From positions 1 through 64,000 of the forward strand of contig NZ_QREG01000001.1 in the NCBI RefSeq assembly GCF_003386095.1: a DNA stretch of 64,000 bases, given 5' to 3'. Source of the stretch: Marinoscillum furvescens DSM 4134. Its GTDB lineage: Bacteria; Bacteroidota; Bacteroidia; Cytophagales; Cyclobacteriaceae. This document shows positions 29,154-63,924 of the stretch, piece by piece. Within the stretch, counting starts at the first letter, position 1. Every line of letters begins with the position of its first letter. A program made the translations under genes and the position numbers. The notes below the pieces were generated by a model. It did not search any database, was not told the origin of the DNA, and was given only the letters and a program-made list of their open reading frames with translations.

Positions 29154-31883
29154 TTAGTGAGTAGTCAATTCGATGTTGTAATATCCGGAACCCACACTTC
29201 CAAGATTTAAATATCCACTTTCTTGTGAGGGTTCTACCGTTTTACCATTGAGTTTCATATCAAAATCACCATCACTGACGTGAGGAATCCAAATATCCGC
29301 TGACATATTCGCAGGGATACTCAGGTCCATGCTGTAGCTACTTGACGTTCTGTTCCATTTTATGCTGATAGTCCCCCTATCAGTAGGCAGTTGACCCTCT
29401 ACAAAAGACAGCTTATCGCCAAAATCAAGAGGCTTTATCTGCACGCGAGCGAATTGTGGCTCCAGTATTGAGATTCCTAAAACATAGCGATGTATACCCA
29501 CAAGACCACTTGCACCCCACGGGTGTGACAGGCTTTGTCCTTCCTGCAATGCATCCCAGGACTCCCAGGTTACGGTAGCTCCCTGAGTTATCGTGTTGGC
29601 CCACCCATCCCAATCAGTCCGAGTATATAGATCTGTAAGATGCTCACCAAGATCCAGGGAACCAATAGCTTCTATTAGCCATCGTACGGTGATCATGCCC
29701 ACACTCATTTTCTGTCCTTCTATTTTTTTTCCTATCAATGGCCTCAGGTCCACAGGAGCAATTCCCAAGGCCACGGGTAAAATATTGGCATGTTGAGAGG
29801 AATGGGTGCTAAGACGCTGATCCGAATAGAGTCCGTCTACATAAAACCCATCATTATGGAGTAAGTGCCTATTAATGCTTTCCTTTAATTGCTGAGCCAA
29901 TAGTAGATAGCTATTTGCTACAATGCTATCTCCAGTCACTTTCGCAATTTCAGCGATTGCTTTAAAATCAGCGTAAGCATAGGCATTGATCACCGTTCGG
30001 TGTGTGGTGGCCATGTCATAGCCATAACGCATGGTTGCGGGCCAATCGATAATTCCATGAAGATAGGCCCCGTTACCTCCGGTCAATTCCTTGACCAGGC
30101 CTGTTTGTGGATCCATGTGACTTGCCACGTATGTGCACACACGCTCAATTTTGGGGAAATGATCTACCAGAAACTGTTTATTACCAGTAATCGTATAATA
30201 TTCCCAGGCCCAAATAGGTAGCATTTGTGTATAATCTGGTATATCGCGTTTGCCATCTCCATTGGGATATACCGCATTGACTCTACCGTCAGTCCAGAAT
30301 TGTTCCTGTGAATTCAAAAATTCCAGTAAAATTCGCAGGTTCATTACGCGCTCTCCCATTTCCTGCATAGCAGCCATGCCGATCAGCCAGGAATCGCCTA
30401 AAAAGCCACCCTTTTCTCGAGTAGGTGTATCGACAAAACTTTCCTGAGCTGCTACTACTAACGAGTGTTTCATCAACTCCCATACTTTATTGAGCATTTC
30501 GTTCGAAGAGTGAAAACGAGACCGCTTGCGGTCCATTTCATGATGACGGGCGATAAATCGCACATTTTCCAAATTCATTGGGTGGGGAGCGCCTTTGACT
30601 TCCAGGTAACGCATACCTAAATAAAGCATTGGCTGAAATGTGCAAGTACTTCCATTTAAAAGGAAAGAATATCCCATATCAGTGGATTGGGTGGTTTGCA
30701 ATGAAACACCTCCATCTGGCGATCGGGTATAACCTCCCCGAATGATCACTTCATTTCCTTCCTTTCCTCCATTAAAAGTAATTTTTGGCACCCCTGCGTA
30801 TATCTTTCCTAAGTCTATCACGTAATGCCCCAAACCTAAAGAGTCTATCCGCTCAGGAACTATTTCTGTTTCTATTAAGCGAGCCAGGTTAGGTTGTAAT
30901 TTTCCTACCCAGGGAGCCACAGGGTGCGCGCCGATGACTATTGGGGACTCCCAGTTGTCATCATCAAAGTTGGTTTGCTCCCAATTTGAAATTTCCAAAC
31001 GAGCATCAATCTTCTCAACAAACCCAACACCTTCTCCGGCATTACGATGTGGCTGACCTACAAGATATTTGGGAGCTGATGTTTGCTTCCAGGTTTCGTT
31101 AGTCAAAATTGATTGTATACTTCCATCTTCGTATTCTATGACCGCTTTCATCAATAGACCTGGTGCACTTTTTGGTCGTCCCTGTCCTGCGCCATACCAG
31201 TGAGTAAGCACTGCCAAAGCTTGTCTTCCCTGTCCGAGTTGGCTGGTCACATCAAAAGTCTTATAATATTGAAATTGTGGATAATGATACCCTGGCCCTT
31301 TACCAATTGGCACGCCATTCAGTGTAAGCTCAAAGTCATGAGCAGCTGAAATATATACCAGAGCTCTCCTGATATTTTTTCCTGCCAGCTCAAACTGCTT
31401 TCTAAAATAAGTATAGGATTCAGGGCCATCAATTGCTCCCCTAATCCACTTTGCCCCGCTCCAATCAGCGTTATCACAAAGTCCCACATCAAAATAATTA
31501 ACATTAGCGTATGCTGAAGGCTGGTGATCATTACCCCAATAGCGAACAGTCCAGTAGTAGCGTTTACCTGACTGCAAGGGTTTGCCACTATAATAAATGT
31601 AATTTTGCTTATTGGAATCTACCTTTCCACTATTCCAATAATCCGCATTGTGCTCTGAAAGCTTGGCTTCACTTGATGCAACTAAAATTTGATAAGATTG
31701 CTGGATGACCCCACTATCCTCTGCATCGATTAACCAACCAAAATAAGGGTTCTGATTTACTCCGGATGGATTAGTAATGTCTGAGCACCTTAGATTATAG
31801 CATTGGGCGACACCAAGTGTAGAGTCTAAAGTGAGTAACAGTAGAAAAATCAAATACGATCTATATACCTTATCCATGATCAT
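29154..31883 (-). CDS. GH78 alpha-L-rhamnosidase
   Basis: 909 residues, normal for GH78. Signal peptide (YLIFLLLLTLDSTLGVAQC), then the N-terminal beta domains starting at NLRCSDITNPSGVNQNPYFG and WSGAKWIRGAIDGPESYTYF, and the (alpha/alpha)6 barrel with DTPTREKGGFLGDSWLIG (about 480-495), which holds conserved acidic residues, and WEYYTITGN. The C-terminal beta domain follows V-T-W-E-S-W. It releases terminal rhamnose from RG-I oligosaccharides. Its ATG overlaps the stop of the mutarotase gene (ATGA), giving tight coupling between rhamnose release and anomer conversion. Confidence 0.94.
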   Translation of the reverse strand: MIMDKVYRSYLIFLLLLTLDSTLGVAQCYNLRCSDITNPSGVNQNPYFGWLIDAEDSGVIQQSYQILVASSEAKLSEHNADYWNSGKVDSNKQNYIYYSGKPLQSGKRYYWTVRYWGNDHQPSAYANVNYFDVGLCDNADWSGAKWIRGAIDGPESYTYFRKQFELAGKNIRRALVYISAAHDFELTLNGVPIGKGPGYHYPQFQYYKTFDVTSQLGQGRQALAVLTHWYGAGQGRPKSAPGLLMKAVIEYEDGSIQSILTNETWKQTSAPKYLVGQPHRNAGEGVGFVEKIDARLEISNWEQTNFDDDNWESPIVIGAHPVAPWVGKLQPNLARLIETEIVPERIDSLGLGHYVIDLGKIYAGVPKITFNGGKEGNEVIIRGGYTRSPDGGVSLQTTQSTDMGYSFLLNGSTCTFQPMLYLGMRYLEVKGAPHPMNLENVRFIARHHEMDRKRSRFHSSNEMLNKVWELMKHSLVVAAQESFVDTPTREKGGFLGDSWLIGMAAMQEMGERVMNLRILLEFLNSQEQFWTDGRVNAVYPNGDGKRDIPDYTQMLPIWAWEYYTITGNKQFLVDHFPKIERVCTYVASHMDPQTGLVKELTGGNGAYLHGIIDWPATMRYGYDMATTHRTVINAYAYADFKAIAEIAKVTGDSIVANSYLLLAQQLKESINRHLLHNDGFYVDGLYSDQRLSTHSSQHANILPVALGIAPVDLRPLIGKKIEGQKMSVGMITVRWLIEAIGSLDLGEHLTDLYTRTDWDGWANTITQGATVTWESWDALQEGQSLSHPWGASGLVGIHRYVLGISILEPQFARVQIKPLDFGDKLSFVEGQLPTDRGTISIKWNRTSSSYSMDLSIPANMSADIWIPHVSDGDFDMKLNGKTVEPSQESGYLNLGSVGSGYYNIELTTH

Positions 31884-32206
31884 TTCATGTAAAAAATTTC
31901 ATCCAGGGGAACAGACTTTGGCGATAAATCGGAGTTTACTTCCATGATATCTGCCATGTATTGCCACCACTTCTGCACAATTTGATGCTCCGCTAAATCC
32001 TGACTTCCGTTGCCTGCTGCCACCTTTTGAAATGCAAATAAGGTGTCCGTTTCCGCATCAAAGAATATGGAGTATTCAGAAATTCCTGCATCACTTAAAA
32101 GCTTCTTCAGCTCAGGCCAAATATTTTCGTGTCTTTGACGATATGCTTCTTTGGCCCCAGTCTTCAATTTCATTTTAAATGCAAGTCGCTCCATTGGAAA
32201 AATCAT
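31880..32206 (-). CDS. rhaM: L-rhamnose mutarotase
   Basis: 108 residues from the ATG at 32206, which lies 2 bp after the upstream stop; an internal ATG at 32194 is equally possible. Matches RhaM through F-K-M-K-L-K near the start, YRQRHENIWPELKKLLSDAG, YSIFFDAETDTLFAF, and WWQYMADIM followed by a C-terminal P-L-D-E-I-F-Y. The enzyme interconverts alpha and beta anomers of L-rhamnose for the isomerase. No signal peptide is seen, so it is cytoplasmic, although its neighbours encode exported enzymes. It sits in the depolymerisation operon rather than beside the rhamnose catabolic genes 24 kb away. Confidence 0.92.
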   Translation of the reverse strand: MIFPMERLAFKMKLKTGAKEAYRQRHENIWPELKKLLSDAGISEYSIFFDAETDTLFAFQKVAAGNGSQDLAEHQIVQKWWQYMADIMEVNSDLSPKSVPLDEIFYMK

Positions 32207-32208
32207 GA

Positions 32209-33474
32209 TTAATTGCCATCTGGTTTTATTACCGATCCCGTGGATGTCACTGGCCATTTCCAACTCAGGTAATCGTCGGGTTGTAGCGGGCTATAGGATT
32301 CTTCAATAGCTAGGTGAGTTTTTAAAGGCGAGTCACTCGCCGAAATCGCTTGCACTACGCATTTTGCGAGCTGAAAAGCCCCATAAGTGCTAAAATGCGT
32401 ATTATCCGCCAGCGCTTTGTCCTGCCAGGGAAAGGTCCCTTTCTCATAATGTACGAAAGCCTTTTTGGATCCCTCTACACCGAGTGTTTCATAAAGCTGA
32501 CGGCTCATTTCGTTTAAGTCTATGAGCAGAATTCCTTCGCGACTGGCCAGCTCTCTCATAGCGGCCGGGTATTCTTCAAGCGTATTGATGATCTTCCCTT
32601 CCGAGTCAAATTTTCTACGATTTGTGGAAGTGATCAGGACGGGAGTGGCCTGGGAGTCCCTGGCCAAACGTACAAATTTCATCAGTTCTTCCTGATAAGT
32701 GGTAAATGGCTCTACATGCGTCCAGCCCGGCTTTTGATCGTTGTGGGCAAACTCCATGCATAAGAAGTCTCCAGGTTTGATTAGAGATTCTATTTTTCGC
32801 AGCCTTTTAGCTGCAATAAATGAGCGTAGTGTTTCACCAGATTCCGCAAAATTAGCTACCACGATATCTGATTTTAAAAAGAGAGGAAGCATTTGCCCCC
32901 AGGAAGCCCAGGGTTCACGCTCTTGATCCACCACAGTGGAATTTCCTGCCAAAAAAATGGTTGGTAAAGTAGTTGCTCGTTCTATAGTAATAGCTCGAAT
33001 ATTTGGACAGCCCCCAGCGAATTCAAGTGTCAAATATTCGTCCCAGTTAAGGTAATCGAGCTCGCGCTCCTTCAGGCTTATTTGTTCCTCAGAATTAATG
33101 ACAGGAGTCCTAACATTCACCGCAAATGTCAAAGTATCGCTATCAGACCGGAGTGTAGTATGGTCATAGACCATAAGACGCCTTGATTCCGCTTTTACAG
33201 TAAGATTTGAGCCACTACCTGTAACTATATTCACCAAATAGTTACCCTCCGGCACCTTGGTCCAAAGCACGAATGAACTTTGTGTTTGACACTGACTGGA
33301 AAAGGAAAAGTCCCCGGAAAAGGAAAAGTCCCAACCTTTAGCTATCCCGGTTGAGGAAGCAGTTACCTTTTCACCTTGAAGATTAATCAATAAGGCGTCC
33401 TTCACTTGGTCCAAATCAGCTTGGCCGGTTGGCTGAAACAACATTATTAACAACAATATCAAATGAATCTGCAT
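32209..33474 (-). CDS. CE12-type rhamnogalacturonan acetylesterase with N-terminal beta domain (GNS variant)
   Basis: 421 residues with a short signal peptide (LILLLIMLFQPTGQA). Residues 30-160 form a beta-sandwich resembling a carbohydrate-binding or PL11-adjacent domain. The SGNH part begins with FLAGNSTVVDQE, where GNS (Ser179) replaces the usual GDS, followed by S-G-E-T-L-R-S-F, FLCMEFAHNDQKPG and the C-terminal D-N-T-H-F. The family removes acetyl groups from RG-I. No T9SS tail is present, so it is likely periplasmic. It follows GH2 by 6 bp and precedes rhaM by 2 bp. Confidence 0.9.
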   Translation of the reverse strand: MQIHLILLLIMLFQPTGQADLDQVKDALLINLQGEKVTASSTGIAKGWDFSFSGDFSFSSQCQTQSSFVLWTKVPEGNYLVNIVTGSGSNLTVKAESRRLMVYDHTTLRSDSDTLTFAVNVRTPVINSEEQISLKERELDYLNWDEYLTLEFAGGCPNIRAITIERATTLPTIFLAGNSTVVDQEREPWASWGQMLPLFLKSDIVVANFAESGETLRSFIAAKRLRKIESLIKPGDFLCMEFAHNDQKPGWTHVEPFTTYQEELMKFVRLARDSQATPVLITSTNRRKFDSEGKIINTLEEYPAAMRELASREGILLIDLNEMSRQLYETLGVEGSKKAFVHYEKGTFPWQDKALADNTHFSTYGAFQLAKCVVQAISASDSPLKTHLAIEESYSPLQPDDYLSWKWPVTSTGSVIKPDGN

Positions 33475-56641: not shown

Positions 56642-58003
56642 CTACTTCTTTTTCATCACATAATAGAGCACTCCACATGCCAACCACGCCGGGAGGGTGA
56701 GGTACGACAGGAATACACCGAAGTATACGGACACAAAGTAGAAAACCACGGCAGATACCACCCACGCACCGAAGACTTTCACATCGAAGGATTTGGTAGT
56801 GGCCTGGAGCCTGGTGCCGTTGATAAAAAAGTGGTCAAACACAATCACCGCTCCCATTGGTGCCAAAATAAATCCATATAGCGCCACAAAATCGAGGAGT
56901 TTCATCGCAAAGGCGGGGAACAAACCAGCGATGGTCGCCACTGTACCAGCCACGATGGTCACCCAAAACGTAGACAGCCTGGGCAAGATCGCCTGGAAAG
57001 CCAGTCCTGCCCGATAGATGGTAGGGTTGGCTGTGGTCCAGCCTGCCAATACCACCACAACGATCCCGAAGATCCCGATAGCATTGTAAGCCAGGGGACC
57101 CGGTGCCACAGACGGTGCCTGACCGGACTGCAAAAGCTGCTGTACATCAGGAGACTGCAAGTACACCGCATACAGCAGAGCTGCAGCGACCCAAGCCATG
57201 TAGTGGCCCACATACATACCTGCAGCGGTGGTCCAGCCAGCCTGTGGAGATTTGGCAAAACGAAATACAGACAAATCCGACATCCCTATGTGCATGGCGC
57301 CATTGGCAAACCACGACCAAAAGATCACGTGCCAGATGGTGTATTTGATCTGACCAGGGAAGGGCTCCGAACCTTCACCCCAGATGTTCCAGAAATCTGC
57401 AAAAGAACCTACTTCTAGCTGCACCAGCGCAACGATGCCCGCCGCTACAAAACCCAGCACAATGACCGGAGCCATGAAATTGGCAGCTTTGGCAACCGTA
57501 TCATAGCCACGAGCCGCAATGATGGATATCACCGCTCCCACAGCCAGCACGATAACCACCCAGGTAAAGCTGTTGGGCATGGTATCAGTAAGGCGTGGCA
57601 TCTGCATATCAAACGGCACTCCTACAGCTGTAGCCGAAACGGTGATCATCGACCCGGCCAGGAAGCAAAACAGCACCCCATTGGCCAGGTTGTAAATACT
57701 CACAAGCTTTTTGCCACAGATCTTTTCCAGCTGATAATACAAAGTAAGCCGGTGCTTCACCGCCACTTCGGCAGTAAGAAATCTCCAGGAAAGTACGGCC
57801 AGCAGGTTGCCTACCAGCAGCCCAATGATCAGGTCAAAAGCACTGACGCCAGTGGTCAGAAACAATGGACCAATGACAAACTCGGTACCGGCAGCATGCT
57901 CACCGGCATACATGCCCAAAAAATTCTTCCAGCTTTTGAGCTTCGACTGTGGGACAGGTTCTCTTTCAAACTCTCCGCTGCTTACTGCTTGTTGTTCTTC
58001 CAT
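56642..58003 (-). CDS. NCS1-family permease, candidate rhamnose-pathway transporter
   Basis: 453 residues, about twelve membrane helices, no signal peptide. Matches the NCS1 (cytosine/purine/allantoin permease) family: the N-terminal FLGMYAGEHAAGTEFVIGPL with helix 1, A-A-R-G-Y-D-T-V-A-K-A-A-N-F, and the late GFILAPMGAVIVFDHFF. Family members carry nucleobases, hydantoins, thiamine-like compounds and a few others with cations. Here it is the last gene of the rhamnose operon, 30 bp after lldD, where a sugar transporter is expected. Transport of rhamnose or lactate by this protein is a hypothesis; the family assignment is firm. Confidence 0.85.
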   Translation of the reverse strand: MEEQQAVSSGEFEREPVPQSKLKSWKNFLGMYAGEHAAGTEFVIGPLFLTTGVSAFDLIIGLLVGNLLAVLSWRFLTAEVAVKHRLTLYYQLEKICGKKLVSIYNLANGVLFCFLAGSMITVSATAVGVPFDMQMPRLTDTMPNSFTWVVIVLAVGAVISIIAARGYDTVAKAANFMAPVIVLGFVAAGIVALVQLEVGSFADFWNIWGEGSEPFPGQIKYTIWHVIFWSWFANGAMHIGMSDLSVFRFAKSPQAGWTTAAGMYVGHYMAWVAAALLYAVYLQSPDVQQLLQSGQAPSVAPGPLAYNAIGIFGIVVVVLAGWTTANPTIYRAGLAFQAILPRLSTFWVTIVAGTVATIAGLFPAFAMKLLDFVALYGFILAPMGAVIVFDHFFINGTRLQATTKSFDVKVFGAWVVSAVVFYFVSVYFGVFLSYLTLPAWLACGVLYYVMKKK

Positions 58004-58033: not shown

Positions 58034-59185
58034 TTAAGATTTGATCAGGTGATGGCTAAGCTCCTGAGGCTGCGCACAGCACAGCTGGCTCATGACCTGA
58101 TAAAGTTGTTTTTTGAGGATAGAAATGGTGTGATCTCCTCCCCTGCTTCCCAACGCAGATACTCCATACATAAAGGACCTGCCCAAAAAGGCAAACTCCG
58201 CTCCAGCCGCAAGGCTGGAGGCAATGTCTGGCCCTGTACGGATGCCACTATCCATCATGATGGCTATTTGGTCCTTGTACTGCTCCACGATAGGATGCAA
58301 AGCGCCGATGGAAGACTCCCCATGATCGAGCTGACGTCCGCCGTGATTGGAGACGATGACGCCATCCAGGCCGAGTTTTACGCATTTCTCCACATCCTCG
58401 GTGCTAGCCACGCCTTTCATCACCAGCTTTCCTTTCCACTGATCACGAATGGCTTTCAGGCGGTCTTCATTTAGCCGCCCATCAAAAGTCTTATTCATAA
58501 AAAGCCCCAGGTGCTTGAGGCTCATCCCTTTGGGGATGTAGGGCTTGAGGGTCTTAAACTCCGGAGTACCTGCCAGCAAAGTATGTATAGCCCATTTGGG
58601 GCATCCCATGATTTGCAGGATGTTTCGAAGGGTAAGCTTTGGAGGTATAGAAAGTCCATTGATGATCTCCTTGGATCGGTACCCAAATGTGGGCACATCC
58701 GCCAGCACCACCAATACCGGATACTCTGCTGCCGCTGCCCGGTCGAGCAGGTCCTTGCGCAGGCTATCCTCTGCTGGGTGATACAGCTGAAACCAGGCAT
58801 TTCCCTCGGTGATCTCACTGATTTTTTCCAGACTGGCAGTACCTACCGTACTCAGTATGTAAGGGATGTTATGCTCAAAAGCGGCTTTGGCCAAAATCTC
58901 CGATGCCCGGGGCCACATAAGCCCCTGCAAACCTATAGGAGCAATACCAAAAGGTGCCGCATAGGTTTTGCCCATTAGCTCCACCTCCAGCGACGGGTTG
59001 ATCACCTCCCGTAAGTAATAGGGTTTGAGCTGCAAGTCGCGGATTTCATCCGTGTTGCGCTTGAGGTTTACCTCTGCATTGCAGCCTCCATCCAGGTATT
59101 CGAATGCAAATCGCGGAATGCGTTTGCGAGCTCGCTCTCGTAGGTAAGGAATATCCGGGTAGTTGGAGTTGATATATTCTTTCAT
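58034..59185 (-). CDS. lldD: FMN-dependent L-lactate dehydrogenase
   Basis: 383 residues of the alpha-hydroxy-acid oxidase fold. Key blocks: FAFEYLDGGCNAEVNLKRN at the N-terminus, APFGIAPIGLQGLMWP, Y-I-L-S-T-V-G-T, G-V-I-V-S-N-H-G-G-R-Q-L-D with the catalytic histidine, and DSGIRTGPDIASSLAAGAEF for the FMN phosphate. It oxidises L-lactate to pyruvate. In the rhamnose operon this fits well: the RhaW half of the fusion gene makes lactate from lactaldehyde, and this enzyme feeds it to central metabolism. It lies 9 bp after rhaB and is membrane-associated in related systems, though no helix is evident. Confidence 0.9.
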   Translation of the reverse strand: MKEYINSNYPDIPYLRERARKRIPRFAFEYLDGGCNAEVNLKRNTDEIRDLQLKPYYLREVINPSLEVELMGKTYAAPFGIAPIGLQGLMWPRASEILAKAAFEHNIPYILSTVGTASLEKISEITEGNAWFQLYHPAEDSLRKDLLDRAAAAEYPVLVVLADVPTFGYRSKEIINGLSIPPKLTLRNILQIMGCPKWAIHTLLAGTPEFKTLKPYIPKGMSLKHLGLFMNKTFDGRLNEDRLKAIRDQWKGKLVMKGVASTEDVEKCVKLGLDGVIVSNHGGRQLDHGESSIGALHPIVEQYKDQIAIMMDSGIRTGPDIASSLAAGAEFAFLGRSFMYGVSALGSRGGDHTISILKKQLYQVMSQLCCAQPQELSHHLIKS

Positions 59186-59194
59186 GTGTGGAGG

Positions 59195-60538
59195 TTAATG
59201 GCTTTCGTTTAGAAAATACTGGCTATAAAAATCACTATTCAGTGCTTCATCTGCAACCTCCAGGGCCGCACCCAGCGAAGATCCCAGCGGAGCGGAGATG
59301 GTCCGTATTTCCAGATGGGGAAAGGCATTTTGCAATAACTGCACAAACACCTGATTGTCTGCAAATCCCCCGTCGATATAGATTTTTGCGATAGCTGCTC
59401 CTTCCAATGCCAGCTGGAGCTGAGCCACCTGCACCTCTACCAGCTCCACCATCAACTGATGATAGGCCGCTTCATACGTGGCGATGCCCGTTAAATCGGT
59501 CTGCTCCGGATTGGGAATTGTGCCTCGATCTAATATCTCCATGCGAAACCTGCGAGGCATTTCTTTGATCAGCGATGGTTCGAAAGTGACCTGCTTGTGC
59601 CGGTCCTCAGACACCCCATAATGATCCGCCAATACCTGCACCTGATGGCTATACTCACTTCCTAGAAAAAGCCTGGACACCCGAACGGGTGCTCCATCTG
59701 TCCGAAGAAAATTGAGGCAGTCGCTGGCCAGGTGCTGCTCAGTAAGCTGCTCCTCACTAAATGGATTCATGGCAATGCTCCATGTGCCCGTAGAAAGCAA
59801 TACGAAAGGCTCCTCACTCATCTTGAGGTAAGGCAGCAAGGCCGCCGAACTGTCATGAATGCCCACACCTACCTGTACCTCTTTTCCGCCAAGGTGAGCA
59901 CTGACCCACTGATGCTCCGCAATAGGCGCCATCAGCTGATCCAATCCTTCTGCCTTCACCCACTGATGGTAGTCATTTTGGGCAAAATCCCAAAGATTGG
60001 TATGGCAACCAATGCTCGTATACTCACTGAATTGCTGACCAGAAAACACATAACTGAGGTACTGAGGGAAATGTAGCGATCGATGAATTTTCTTAAAAAC
60101 TTCAGGCTTTCGATGCTTGAGCCAATAAAGCTGCATGCCGGAATTGAGCATCGCCATTTGTGGTGATGCTGTTGCAGCAGCTAGTTGCGCTTTAGGTCCG
60201 TAATCACTATAAAATTGATCCAGCAATTCCGGTGGATACGGCTTGAGGTAATTGTATAAACAACTTACGGGCCGGCCTGATTCATCTAAATGAACCAGAC
60301 TAGCGCCGTATGTTGAGTAATTAATCGACTGAAGGTCGTAATGCTCAGCAGCCAGCACCGGATCGAGCTGTGCATGCATCCAGGATACAATGGCTTCCAA
60401 ATCATCGCATGGATCACCATCTTCATCCTGTATTTCAGGAATGGTGATGTACTCCTTGTGAAGCTCATTGAGCTGCTGATCAAAAAGCACAAACTTTTTG
60501 TTGGTTTTACCTATATCAAATACTGCCGTTACTTTCAT
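59195..60538 (-). CDS. rhaB: L-rhamnulokinase (FGGY family)
   Basis: 447 residues. FGGY-kinase landmarks: DIGKTNKKFVLFDQ for phosphate binding at the N-terminus, N-Y-S-T-Y-G-A-S-L-V, LWDFAQNDYHQW, VGIHDSSAALLPYL, and S-T-G-T-W-S-I-A-M-N-P-F. This version is the shorter RhaB type found in Bacteroidota rather than the E. coli type. It phosphorylates L-rhamnulose to rhamnulose 1-phosphate for the aldolase. It starts 3 bp after the isomerase stop. Confidence 0.88.
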   Translation of the reverse strand: MKVTAVFDIGKTNKKFVLFDQQLNELHKEYITIPEIQDEDGDPCDDLEAIVSWMHAQLDPVLAAEHYDLQSINYSTYGASLVHLDESGRPVSCLYNYLKPYPPELLDQFYSDYGPKAQLAAATASPQMAMLNSGMQLYWLKHRKPEVFKKIHRSLHFPQYLSYVFSGQQFSEYTSIGCHTNLWDFAQNDYHQWVKAEGLDQLMAPIAEHQWVSAHLGGKEVQVGVGIHDSSAALLPYLKMSEEPFVLLSTGTWSIAMNPFSEEQLTEQHLASDCLNFLRTDGAPVRVSRLFLGSEYSHQVQVLADHYGVSEDRHKQVTFEPSLIKEMPRRFRMEILDRGTIPNPEQTDLTGIATYEAAYHQLMVELVEVQVAQLQLALEGAAIAKIYIDGGFADNQVFVQLLQNAFPHLEIRTISAPLGSSLGAALEVADEALNSDFYSQYFLNESH

Positions 60539-60541
60539 GGA

Positions 60542-61825
60542 TTACAATCCTGTAGCTACCACTGTTTTACCTCGCTCTCCTATCAGTTGTCCACGCACAT
60601 CCAGCTTGCGATACAGCCCCAGAGGATCTAGCGCTCCACCTGCCATGGCACGAGCGGCCGCCACTATGGGGCGCACATCGGTACGGTAGGCTCGCTGCAA
60701 GATTTCCTGACACATGGTCACATCATGATTGCGCTGTGCTTCTTCCAGCGCCTGCTGATCTACCAGCAAGGCCTGCGCATAGGCGATGCTAATGGCTTCC
60801 AGTGACTGCATCAGGTCCTCGATCGGGTCTTTCACATTGTGGCTGGCATCGATCATCCAGGCCAGTGGAGGATTCCCTGCATCATTGTTTTGCATACCAT
60901 ATACCAGCTCATTGAAAATCAAAAACAGCTGATAAGGCTTGATGCTACCACAGGTAAGGTCATCGTCACCATACTTGCTATCATTGAAGTGAAAACCTCC
61001 AAGACGGCCTTTGGCCATCAAGGTAGCTACAATTTGCTCAATGTTGGTATTGGGCAGGTGATGTCCTAAATCCACCAGCGTGTGTGCTCGTTCTCCACAG
61101 CCTTCGGCTAGCATGAGCGAGGTACCCCAATCCTGGATGACCGTGGAGTAGAAGTTAGGCTCGTATGGCTTATACTCTACCAGTAGCTTCCAGTCTTGTG
61201 GCAGGTGGCTGTAGATTTCATGCAGGGACTCCTGCGTGTTTTGTAGCGCCTTTCGGAAATTGTTTTGTCCCGGAAAAGATGCTCCGTCTGCCAACCATAC
61301 GGTGAGTGCATTGCTACCCAGCTCCTGTCCATACTGGATCACCTCGATGTTGTGATCAATTGCCAGCTGTCTGCTTGCTTTTTCAGAATTGCTCAGCGAG
61401 CCGTGTTTGTAACTAAACGGCTGCCCCTGCTGATCCTGAAAGGTGTTGGAATTCATGGCATCAAAAACAATCCCATGCTCCTCCGCACGTTGCTTGATCG
61501 CGGCTGTGTCTTTGGGAATATCCCACGGAATGTGCAGTGAAATGGCTCCTGCAGTCTGAGTAAGTGCATGGATCACACCTACGTCATCCAGTTTATCCTC
61601 CAGACTACCTGGCTCCCCACCAATCGAAAATCTCCCGAAGCGCGTACCTCCGGCACCCAGTGCCCAGCTAGGGATGGCTACCTGAAAGTCTTTCAGCTGA
61701 TCAAGCAACAGGGAGAGTGTGACTCCCTGCTTACTCAACTGCGCGTCTAAAAAAGCTAAGTGCGCTTCGTTATCTGCCTGATGCTCCTCGTTGTGAGCGG
61801 CTATATGTTCTTTGCTAATTCGCAT
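60542..61825 (-). CDS. rhaI: L-rhamnose isomerase (RhaI type)
   Basis: 427 residues of the RhaI / Pseudomonas-type L-rhamnose isomerase family rather than the E. coli RhaA type. Diagnostic parts: IPSWALGAGGTRFGRFSIGG near the N-terminus, ISLHIPWDIPKD, EYKPYEPNFYSTV (metal-binding Glu), TLVDLGHHLPNTNIEQI, and GGFHFNDSKYGDDDL. It converts L-rhamnose to L-rhamnulose using a divalent metal. Its ATG overlaps the stop of the upstream fusion gene by one base (TAATG), so expression is coupled. Confidence 0.93.
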   Translation of the reverse strand: MRISKEHIAAHNEEHQADNEAHLAFLDAQLSKQGVTLSLLLDQLKDFQVAIPSWALGAGGTRFGRFSIGGEPGSLEDKLDDVGVIHALTQTAGAISLHIPWDIPKDTAAIKQRAEEHGIVFDAMNSNTFQDQQGQPFSYKHGSLSNSEKASRQLAIDHNIEVIQYGQELGSNALTVWLADGASFPGQNNFRKALQNTQESLHEIYSHLPQDWKLLVEYKPYEPNFYSTVIQDWGTSLMLAEGCGERAHTLVDLGHHLPNTNIEQIVATLMAKGRLGGFHFNDSKYGDDDLTCGSIKPYQLFLIFNELVYGMQNNDAGNPPLAWMIDASHNVKDPIEDLMQSLEAISIAYAQALLVDQQALEEAQRNHDVTMCQEILQRAYRTDVRPIVAAARAMAGGALDPLGLYRKLDVRGQLIGERGKTVVATGL

Positions 61826-63924
61826 TATCTTACAAAAGCTTCAGCCATTCCACCATCTACGTTGATCGTATTGCCGGTACTCTTGTCCAGTATGGCTGTC
61901 ACGGCAAAAACACCATTGGCAATATCCTCAGGACGGATGATTTCATTCATCAGGTTTCGCTTCGCATAAAATGCCGGAAGCTCCTCCACGGTGATACCAT
62001 AGGCTTTTGCTCTACCTTCAGCCCATTCGCCTTCCCAGATTTTGCTACCTACGATCACCCCATCAGGGTTTACGGTATTTACGCGGATCTTGTGAGGGCC
62101 GAGCTCAGCAGCCAGCAACCTTGTCATGTGTTGCTGTGCAGCTTTGGCCGTGCCATAGCCTACATTGTTTTTACCTGCTACGAGTCCATTCTTACTGGCT
62201 ATGTTGACGATATCGCCACCAAAACCTTGCGTTTTCATGATCTCCACACCTTTTTTGGCCATGTTAAACTGACCTTTTACCAGTACATCTTGGAGGATGT
62301 TCCAGTCTTTGAGTGTAGTATCTTCCAATGGCTTGGAAATCGCCAGACCTGCCGAATGCACCACAATATCTACCCCTCCAAACTCGAGACTTGCTTGCTT
62401 ATAAGCCTTGTCGATGGAGCTTTCGTCAGACACGTCGCATACACCATAAGCCGAAATATCTCTTTTGTAAGTAGCGTTTGCCACCTGCAGACGGTCATCG
62501 TCTATATCTGTGAGAAATACATTGGCACCCTCTGCAGCCAGTTTATCAGCAATGGCTTTGCCAATACCACCACCTGCACCGGTGATGATAGCCACTCTTC
62601 GTGAAAGGGGCTTTTCCGGAGGCATACGCTTGAGCTTGTCTTCCTCGAGCAGCCAGTATTCGATATCGAAGGCTTCCTGACGGGGAAGTGCGGTATACTC
62701 GGTGATGGCCTCTGCACCACGCATCACATTGATAGCATTGATGTAAAACTCAGATGCCACGCGAGCGGTCTGCTTGTTTTTGGCAAACGTAAACATGCCC
62801 ACACCCGGGTAAAGGATCACTACAGGGTTCGGGTCACGCATAGCCGGGCTATTGTCGCGCTTACAGTTTTGGTAGTATGCTTCGTATTCTTTTCTGTATT
62901 GCTCAAAAGCAGGTGTGATTTTCTCTTTGATGGCTGCTGGATCTGAAAGGTCCTCATCAGGTGCGATTTCAAGCACCAAAGGCTGGATCTTCGTACGCAG
63001 GAAGTGGTCAGGACATGAAGTACCCAGTGGTGCCAGTCGGTCCAGGTCGTTGCTATTCACAAACTGAAGCACCCGTTCGTCATCGGTGAAGTGACCGATC
63101 ATTTTGTTGTAGCTAGAGCAAAGCCCTCGCAATACCGGCGCAAGTTGTGACGCTTGAGCTTTGCGCTGATCACCTTGAAGGCTTTCGATGCGCGAACCTC
63201 CAAATACAGGCCCTTTGGCACCTTCGCGCTCAGCGATATAGCTGGATGCAGCTTCGATCACTTCGAGGCTGTTCATGTAACACTCATAGCTGGTGTCTCC
63301 CCAGGTAAACAGTCCGTGGCTTCCCAGCACGATACCGCGGATACCCGGATTGTCATTGAGGCATTTTTCCAGCTGTAGGCCCAGGTCGAAACCGGGACGC
63401 TGCCAGGGAACCCAACCCATGGTGTCTCCCCAGATTTCTTTGGTGATGGCCTCACTGTCTTTGGCGGCAGCCACGGCGATCAATGCATCGGGGTGCAGGT
63501 GATCGATGTGCTTGAATGGCAACAATCCGTGTAGCGGCGTATCGATAGAAGGTGCGCGGCTGTCCAGATCGTGCAGACAGTGGTAGTAAAGGGGTACAAT
63601 TTCGTCTTCAAACTCAATACCACGGTAGGCGTTTTTCAGGTTTCTGATCTTGTCTGTATACAAGCCTGCAATTCCGTCTCTGGTAAGCGTTCCGATATCT
63701 CCTCCAGAACCTTTTACCCACAGCACTTCGCGTTCTTCACCCGTCAGCGGGTCCTTTTCCATGGTCTTGCAGGAAGTGTTGCCCCCACCATAGTTGGTGA
63801 TGCGCAGGTCCTGACCAAGGATATTGGATCGGTACAAGAAAAGTGCTACCTGATCGTCTCCCAATTTATCTGCCTGGGCATCATCCCAGAGATAGTCTAC
63901 GTGTTTGAATTCTTTTAACTTCAT
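61825..63924 (-). CDS. rhaEW: Fused rhamnulose-1-phosphate aldolase / L-lactaldehyde dehydrogenase (RhaEW type)
   Basis: 699 residues in two enzymes. Residues 1 to about 420 are a class II aldolase/adducin domain: NYGGGNTSCKTMEKDPLTGE, VKGSGGDIGTLTRDGIAGLY, and H-I-D-H-L-H-P-D-A-L with metal histidines. Residues 440-699 are an SDR: AIITGAGGGIGKAIADKLAA and Y-G-T-A-K as catalytic pair. This is the known bifunctional RhaEW layout, which splits rhamnulose 1-phosphate and oxidises the resulting lactaldehyde to lactate. First gene of the operon visible here; only 76 bp of its upstream region lies in the window and no clear promoter box is seen there. Confidence 0.94.
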   Translation of the reverse strand: MKLKEFKHVDYLWDDAQADKLGDDQVALFLYRSNILGQDLRITNYGGGNTSCKTMEKDPLTGEEREVLWVKGSGGDIGTLTRDGIAGLYTDKIRNLKNAYRGIEFEDEIVPLYYHCLHDLDSRAPSIDTPLHGLLPFKHIDHLHPDALIAVAAAKDSEAITKEIWGDTMGWVPWQRPGFDLGLQLEKCLNDNPGIRGIVLGSHGLFTWGDTSYECYMNSLEVIEAASSYIAEREGAKGPVFGGSRIESLQGDQRKAQASQLAPVLRGLCSSYNKMIGHFTDDERVLQFVNSNDLDRLAPLGTSCPDHFLRTKIQPLVLEIAPDEDLSDPAAIKEKITPAFEQYRKEYEAYYQNCKRDNSPAMRDPNPVVILYPGVGMFTFAKNKQTARVASEFYINAINVMRGAEAITEYTALPRQEAFDIEYWLLEEDKLKRMPPEKPLSRRVAIITGAGGGIGKAIADKLAAEGANVFLTDIDDDRLQVANATYKRDISAYGVCDVSDESSIDKAYKQASLEFGGVDIVVHSAGLAISKPLEDTTLKDWNILQDVLVKGQFNMAKKGVEIMKTQGFGGDIVNIASKNGLVAGKNNVGYGTAKAAQQHMTRLLAAELGPHKIRVNTVNPDGVIVGSKIWEGEWAEGRAKAYGITVEELPAFYAKRNLMNEIIRPEDIANGVFAVTAILDKSTGNTINVDGGMAEAFVR

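Follow-up and report, generated by a model that had tools for sequence, protein, structure and literature searches.

Rhamnose operon and neighbouring region

The window analysed here, 64,000 nucleotides of the Marinoscillum furvescens DSM 4134 genome, contains a tight five-gene operon for rhamnose catabolism, transcribed from the minus strand. The first gene (61825..63924) encodes a rhamnulose-1-phosphate aldolase/short-chain dehydrogenase fusion (RhaD/dehydrogenase), which scored above the cut-offs of both NF006189 (976 bits) and TIGR02632 (935 bits). It is followed by rhaI, encoding L-rhamnose isomerase (60542..61825; TIGR02629, 499 bits, below the cut-off of 647), and by a gene for a FGGY kinase (59195..60538; PF00370/PF21546) that is probably the rhamnulokinase RhaK, rhamnulokinase being its best NCBIfam model, at a score far below cut-off. 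The fourth gene (58034..59185) encodes an LldD-like, FMN-dependent alpha-hydroxy acid (L-lactate) dehydrogenase (PF01070, 386 bits; PRK11197, 290 bits, below the cut-off of 376). The fifth and final gene (56642..58003, minus strand, ATG start) encodes a permease of 453 amino acids, the proposed L-rhamnose importer, characterized here by its open reading frame, a structure model with fold matches to CodB and Mhp1, and its association with rha genes. Gaps between successive genes are -1, 3, 9 and 30 bp. A gene encoding an AraC-family regulator is divergent from the operon and lies just beyond the window (contig C1, about 64068-64928).

No gene for RhaT, FucP or an SSS (sodium/solute symporter) protein is present within the rha operon. 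Open reading frame positions and family profiles thus bear out, for the operon, the original prediction that the permease closes a rhamnose operon which lacks these three types of transporter.

Next to the operon is a large polysaccharide-utilization region (6151-54641) with SusC/SusD-like, GH115-type and pectin-lyase-like genes. It includes genes for an alpha-L-rhamnosidase (29154..31883, minus strand; PF17389, 150 bits, with further rhamnosidase domains), a possible source of rhamnose, and for the L-rhamnose mutarotase RhaM (31880..32263, minus strand; PF05336, 99 bits), whose presence in the window supports rhamnose use.

Family membership and predicted fold

The permease was originally described as a clear NCS1-family protein, which is too strong. 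No Pfam family matched it at E ≤ 1, leaving PF02133, PF06379 and PF00474 all unmatched, and a search of the whole genome with the PF02133 profile gave no match at all. The NCBIfam model for ncs1 (TIGR00800) gave 46.1 bits (E = 2.8e-12), compared with a cut-off of 353.1. Searches of PDB sequences, started from the single protein or from a 20-row profile, gave no credible relative. Because these curated models are unmatched at their thresholds, the permease is not filed as a member of the NCS1 family. What stands is a remote link, made by the weak TIGR00800 hit, the predicted fold and a profile-profile alignment.

An AlphaFold2 model built from 42 relatives (pLDDT 77.8, pTM 0.80) has 12 membrane helices, as read from the listed helices; TM1 is broken at residues 36-38 and TM6 at residues 241-242. 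The top Foldseek matches in the PDB were CodB (TM-score by target 0.80; 19% identity in the structural match) and Mhp1 (0.69; 14 to 15% identity). The next-best folds were SSS symporters of sialic acid, iodide and sugars, together with other LeuT-fold proteins. Alignment of the profile of the permease family with that of CodB and AllW gave a probability of 95.6%. In a tree including CodB and AllW the branches were saturated, so that it shows only that the permease family is one separate group. The model therefore places the permease as a predicted NCS1-fold protein that is very remote from known NCS1 members.

Some functional positions of CodB can be followed into the permease. The Na2-site residues Thr278 and Thr279 of CodB (TM8) align in the profile alignment with T323 and T324, which are conserved across both rhamnose-linked and mannitol-linked clades (see below), and the sodium site is apparently kept. 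The Arg216-Tyr285 pair of CodB probably aligns with R248 and Y330. Trp108 in TM3 of CodB, which stacks on the base, aligns with the invariant Phe112 of the permease, while the register is unsure in TM6, where the second residue (Phe or Trp) of the aromatic pair enclosing the base is located.

Association with rhamnose catabolism

Conservation of the association with rhaI and rhaB in related genomes had been proposed as a check, and the outcome was strongly positive. Among relatives with 72 to 78% identity, 75 of 80 lie beside rhaI, rhaK or rhaD; locus L058 was discounted from this count, its match being an unrelated short-chain dehydrogenase. For three of the five relatives without such linkage, a contig end is close by. 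At about 50% identity, in other families and classes, 14 of 17 relatives adjoin rha genes. RhaI was present in every genome with the permease in two samples, one of 247 genomes across the phylum (23/23) and one of 300 Flavobacteriaceae genomes (69/69), although genomes in both are non-independent by descent. In the Flavobacteriaceae sample the permease gene was within 10 kb of rhaI in 66 genomes. Across all the relatives, a few permease genes are located away from rha genes.

Two metagenome bins, labelled Rickettsiales and Thalassobius (L004 and L063), also contain close relatives (75 to 78% identity), which are probably either on mis-binned Bacteroidota contigs or the result of recent transfer. 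More distant Flavobacteriaceae relatives with 46 to 51% identity (L239-L242, from genomes G371, G423 and G457 and as a second copy in G431) lie within or close to clusters that contain sulfatase, SusC/SusD or glucuronate (UxaC, UxuA) genes. These were counted with caution. A Persicobacter member of the same clade, however, adjoins rhaI and rhaK.

The family extends to plasmids of Alteromonas, Catenovulum and Pseudoalteromonas, where relatives show 41 to 44% identity over the matched part. Three of these have rhaI and rhaD nearby and carry the annotation 'nucleoside transporter'; none of the plasmids concerned is among the RhaT-bearing records. One is pAlt76 of Alteromonas sp., which has been linked to growth on ulvan (PMC6431674). 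In the stretches of pAlt76 that were read, one other carbohydrate importer of the inner membrane is annotated, a TRAP system next to uronate genes. On a plasmid of Alteromonas sp. I4, a relative with 41% identity (L259, 12001-13686) is flanked by glycosyl hydrolase genes, and no rha gene was seen in the stretch.

The annotation of the plasmid proteins, and the fact that CodB and Mhp1 are the closest solved folds, might suggest a nucleobase or nucleoside transporter lying in the rha operon by chance. This is hardly credible given that every permease genome of the two samples has RhaI, that the PF02133 profile is unmatched and that the base-stacking TM3 Trp of CodB aligns with a Phe. No close homologue of the permease with proven nucleobase transport was found.

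Complementarity with RhaT

The permease and RhaT are largely complementary. Of 42 genomes with RhaI in the phylum sample, 22 had the permease alone and 17 had RhaT alone, while one had both and two had neither (Fisher P = 1e-8, with no correction for kinship; of the rhamnose importer families, the survey covered these two). Among 43 named genomes with the permease, 30 were without any RhaT-family gene, including that of Nonlabens ulvanivorans. Exclusion across the genome is weaker in Flavobacteriaceae, where 12 to 17 of 69 permease genomes, depending on threshold, also have a RhaT-family gene; RhaT was never within 15 kb of rhaI in these permease genomes. One genome (G357; L237, 14721-16320) has RhaT in its rha locus, followed directly by a truncated permease of which only the last third is left, likely a relic of importer replacement. 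Another Flavobacteriaceae locus (L238, genome G485) is a rha operon with lldD and with neither the permease nor RhaT.

Since the lldD-like gene adjoins the permease gene in the window, and lldD is found in 55 of the 76 loci scored as rha-linked, the permease might instead move L-lactate, lactaldehyde or 1,2-propanediol in or out of the cell, with rhamnose entering by another transporter. However, at 17 of the 76 loci no lldD or lut gene is within reach, and none of the rha-linked relatives with about 50% identity has lldD, though most have lutAB-type lactate genes instead. All 15 RhaT operons that were read contain rhaD, rhaI and rhaK, 11 keep lldD or lut, and none contains the permease. Because RhaT fills the place of the permease while the lactate genes stay, this argues that the permease does the job of RhaT and not that of a lactate transporter, making transport of lactate or a related compound very unlikely. 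The original prediction left open whether rhamnose or another compound of the pathway was carried; the complementarity with RhaT favours rhamnose over lactate and lactaldehyde.

The same complementarity bears on the form in which rhamnose might be taken up. The operon is near polysaccharide-degrading genes in the window and relatives occur in ulvan-type clusters, as might be expected if the permease imported not free rhamnose but a derivative of it, or oligosaccharides containing it, from pectin or ulvan. RhaT, whose place is taken, is a monosaccharide symporter, however, and the nearest folds carry small substrates. In addition, gene content and Pfam matches revealed no intracellular glycosidase within the rha operon. 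Import of oligosaccharides or derivatives is thus highly improbable.

The genome of M. furvescens is not without any RhaT, an idea which was considered and rejected, as one distant RhaT-family gene is present on contig C18 (36864-37865; also L100, 8874-9878). It is the sole PF06379 match of the genome (81.6 bits) and scored 309.8 bits against the NCBIfam RhaT equivalog model, below the cut-off of 369. It lies in a cluster with genes for a sulfatase, a galactose-mutarotase-like protein, an aldehyde dehydrogenase and a sugar-acid dehydratase, an arrangement suggestive of a non-phosphorylating sugar pathway that has an importer of its own. The RhaT-family protein may transport a different sugar, or rhamnose as well. 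There are more than ten SSS genes (PF00474) in the genome; the permease gene is not among the matches.

Mannitol-linked sister clade

A sister clade with 35 to 38% identity consists of proteins of about 572 amino acids with a C-terminal extension. Its genes directly precede a gene of the mannitol dehydrogenase family at all 17 Bacteroidota loci checked (L243-L256 and L157-L159, with the gene at 8807-10525 in L157 and 8940-10652 in L159) and on three Alteromonadales plasmids, giving 20 of 20; the loci with this arrangement include L260, L261 and L264. A sugar kinase gene is next at some of these loci, and the proteins are annotated as 'hypothetical protein' in plasmid records. From this gene context the clade is a candidate polyol importer.

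The mannitol-linked clade was set apart in the tree with full support. The rhamnose-linked Alteromonadales proteins grouped with it, possibly due to their shared C-terminal extension, and linkage to rhamnose therefore appears on both sides of the root as drawn. Residues conserved within but different between rhamnose-linked and mannitol-linked groups include G39 and L47 (TM1), L115-G117 (TM3), H225, A236, M237 and M241 (TM6), and T328 and I329 (TM8), as well as other sites. TM1, TM3, TM6 and TM8 are the helices where substrates of LeuT-fold transporters bind. As far as aligned residues can indicate, these differences would be the pattern expected of a changed sugar specificity.

Proposed role in rhamnose uptake

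Import of L-rhamnose is by far the best explanation of the permease and very probably correct, both substrate and direction of transport being what we infer from the evidence above. The permease would be the inner-membrane L-rhamnose importer of the operon and, because the alignment places its Thr-Thr pair at the Na2 site of CodB, is probably a Na+-coupled symporter with a LeuT/NCS1 fold. Rhamnose freed in the periplasm would enter through it, to be isomerised by RhaI, phosphorylated by RhaK, and cleaved and oxidised by the aldolase/dehydrogenase to DHAP and lactate. The lactate may then be oxidised by the LldD-like enzyme and passed on to pyruvate. The enzyme roles in this scheme are taken from the named protein families and from PMC3870299. 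The permease would thus be a non-homologous replacement of RhaT.

A broader reading is fairly probable, namely that the permease belongs to an unnamed, widespread carbohydrate branch of NCS1-fold proteins. Members in several deep clades (Bacteroidota and Alteromonadales) would transport L-rhamnose and those of the sister clade a polyol, probably mannitol, with the switch in pocket positions of TM1, TM3, TM6 and TM8. One lineage would have RhaT visibly replacing the permease in place.

None of the literature searched gives rhamnose as the substrate of an NCS1-like protein. Echvi_1617 of Echinicola vietnamensis is reportedly listed in GapMind as an L-rhamnose transporter on the basis of mutant fitness data, and it may already belong to the permease family. 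If it does, one member of the family already has a known function.

Rhamnose is a main sugar of ulvan and is also found in pectin. Many Bacteroidota that use ulvan or pectin have complete rha genes with no recognised importer alongside, a gap which the permease family would fill in many genomes. At present its members escape Pfam or are annotated as 'nucleoside transporter' or 'hypothetical protein'. They would widen the substrate range of NCS1-fold proteins to sugars and polyols, and their rhamnose and mannitol clades would form a natural pair for learning how the pocket changes specificity.

Comparison with known systems

CodB (cytosine) and Mhp1 (hydantoins) resemble the permease in fold; the threonines of the Na2 site are conserved in it, as is probably the Arg-Tyr pair known from CodB. 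They differ from it in that identity is low, the permease has no PF02133 match and, in the alignment, a Phe for the base-stacking Trp, and it is linked to sugar catabolism. SSS proteins such as SiaT and SGLT are LeuT-fold Na+ symporters of sugars, but their fold scores to the permease are lower than that of CodB and the permease does not match PF00474.

Among rhamnose transporters, the available text of PMC3870299 names three families, none of them NCS1-like. RhaY (MFS), predicted from gene context (PMC3870299), and the ABC systems RhaFGHJ and RhaSTPQ are, like the permease, lineage-specific rhamnose transporters, but belong to different superfamilies. RhaT, an L-rhamnose/proton symporter of the DMT superfamily, is from a family unrelated to the permease, which has no PF06379 match. 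It nevertheless occupies the same place in rha operons and presumably does the same job.
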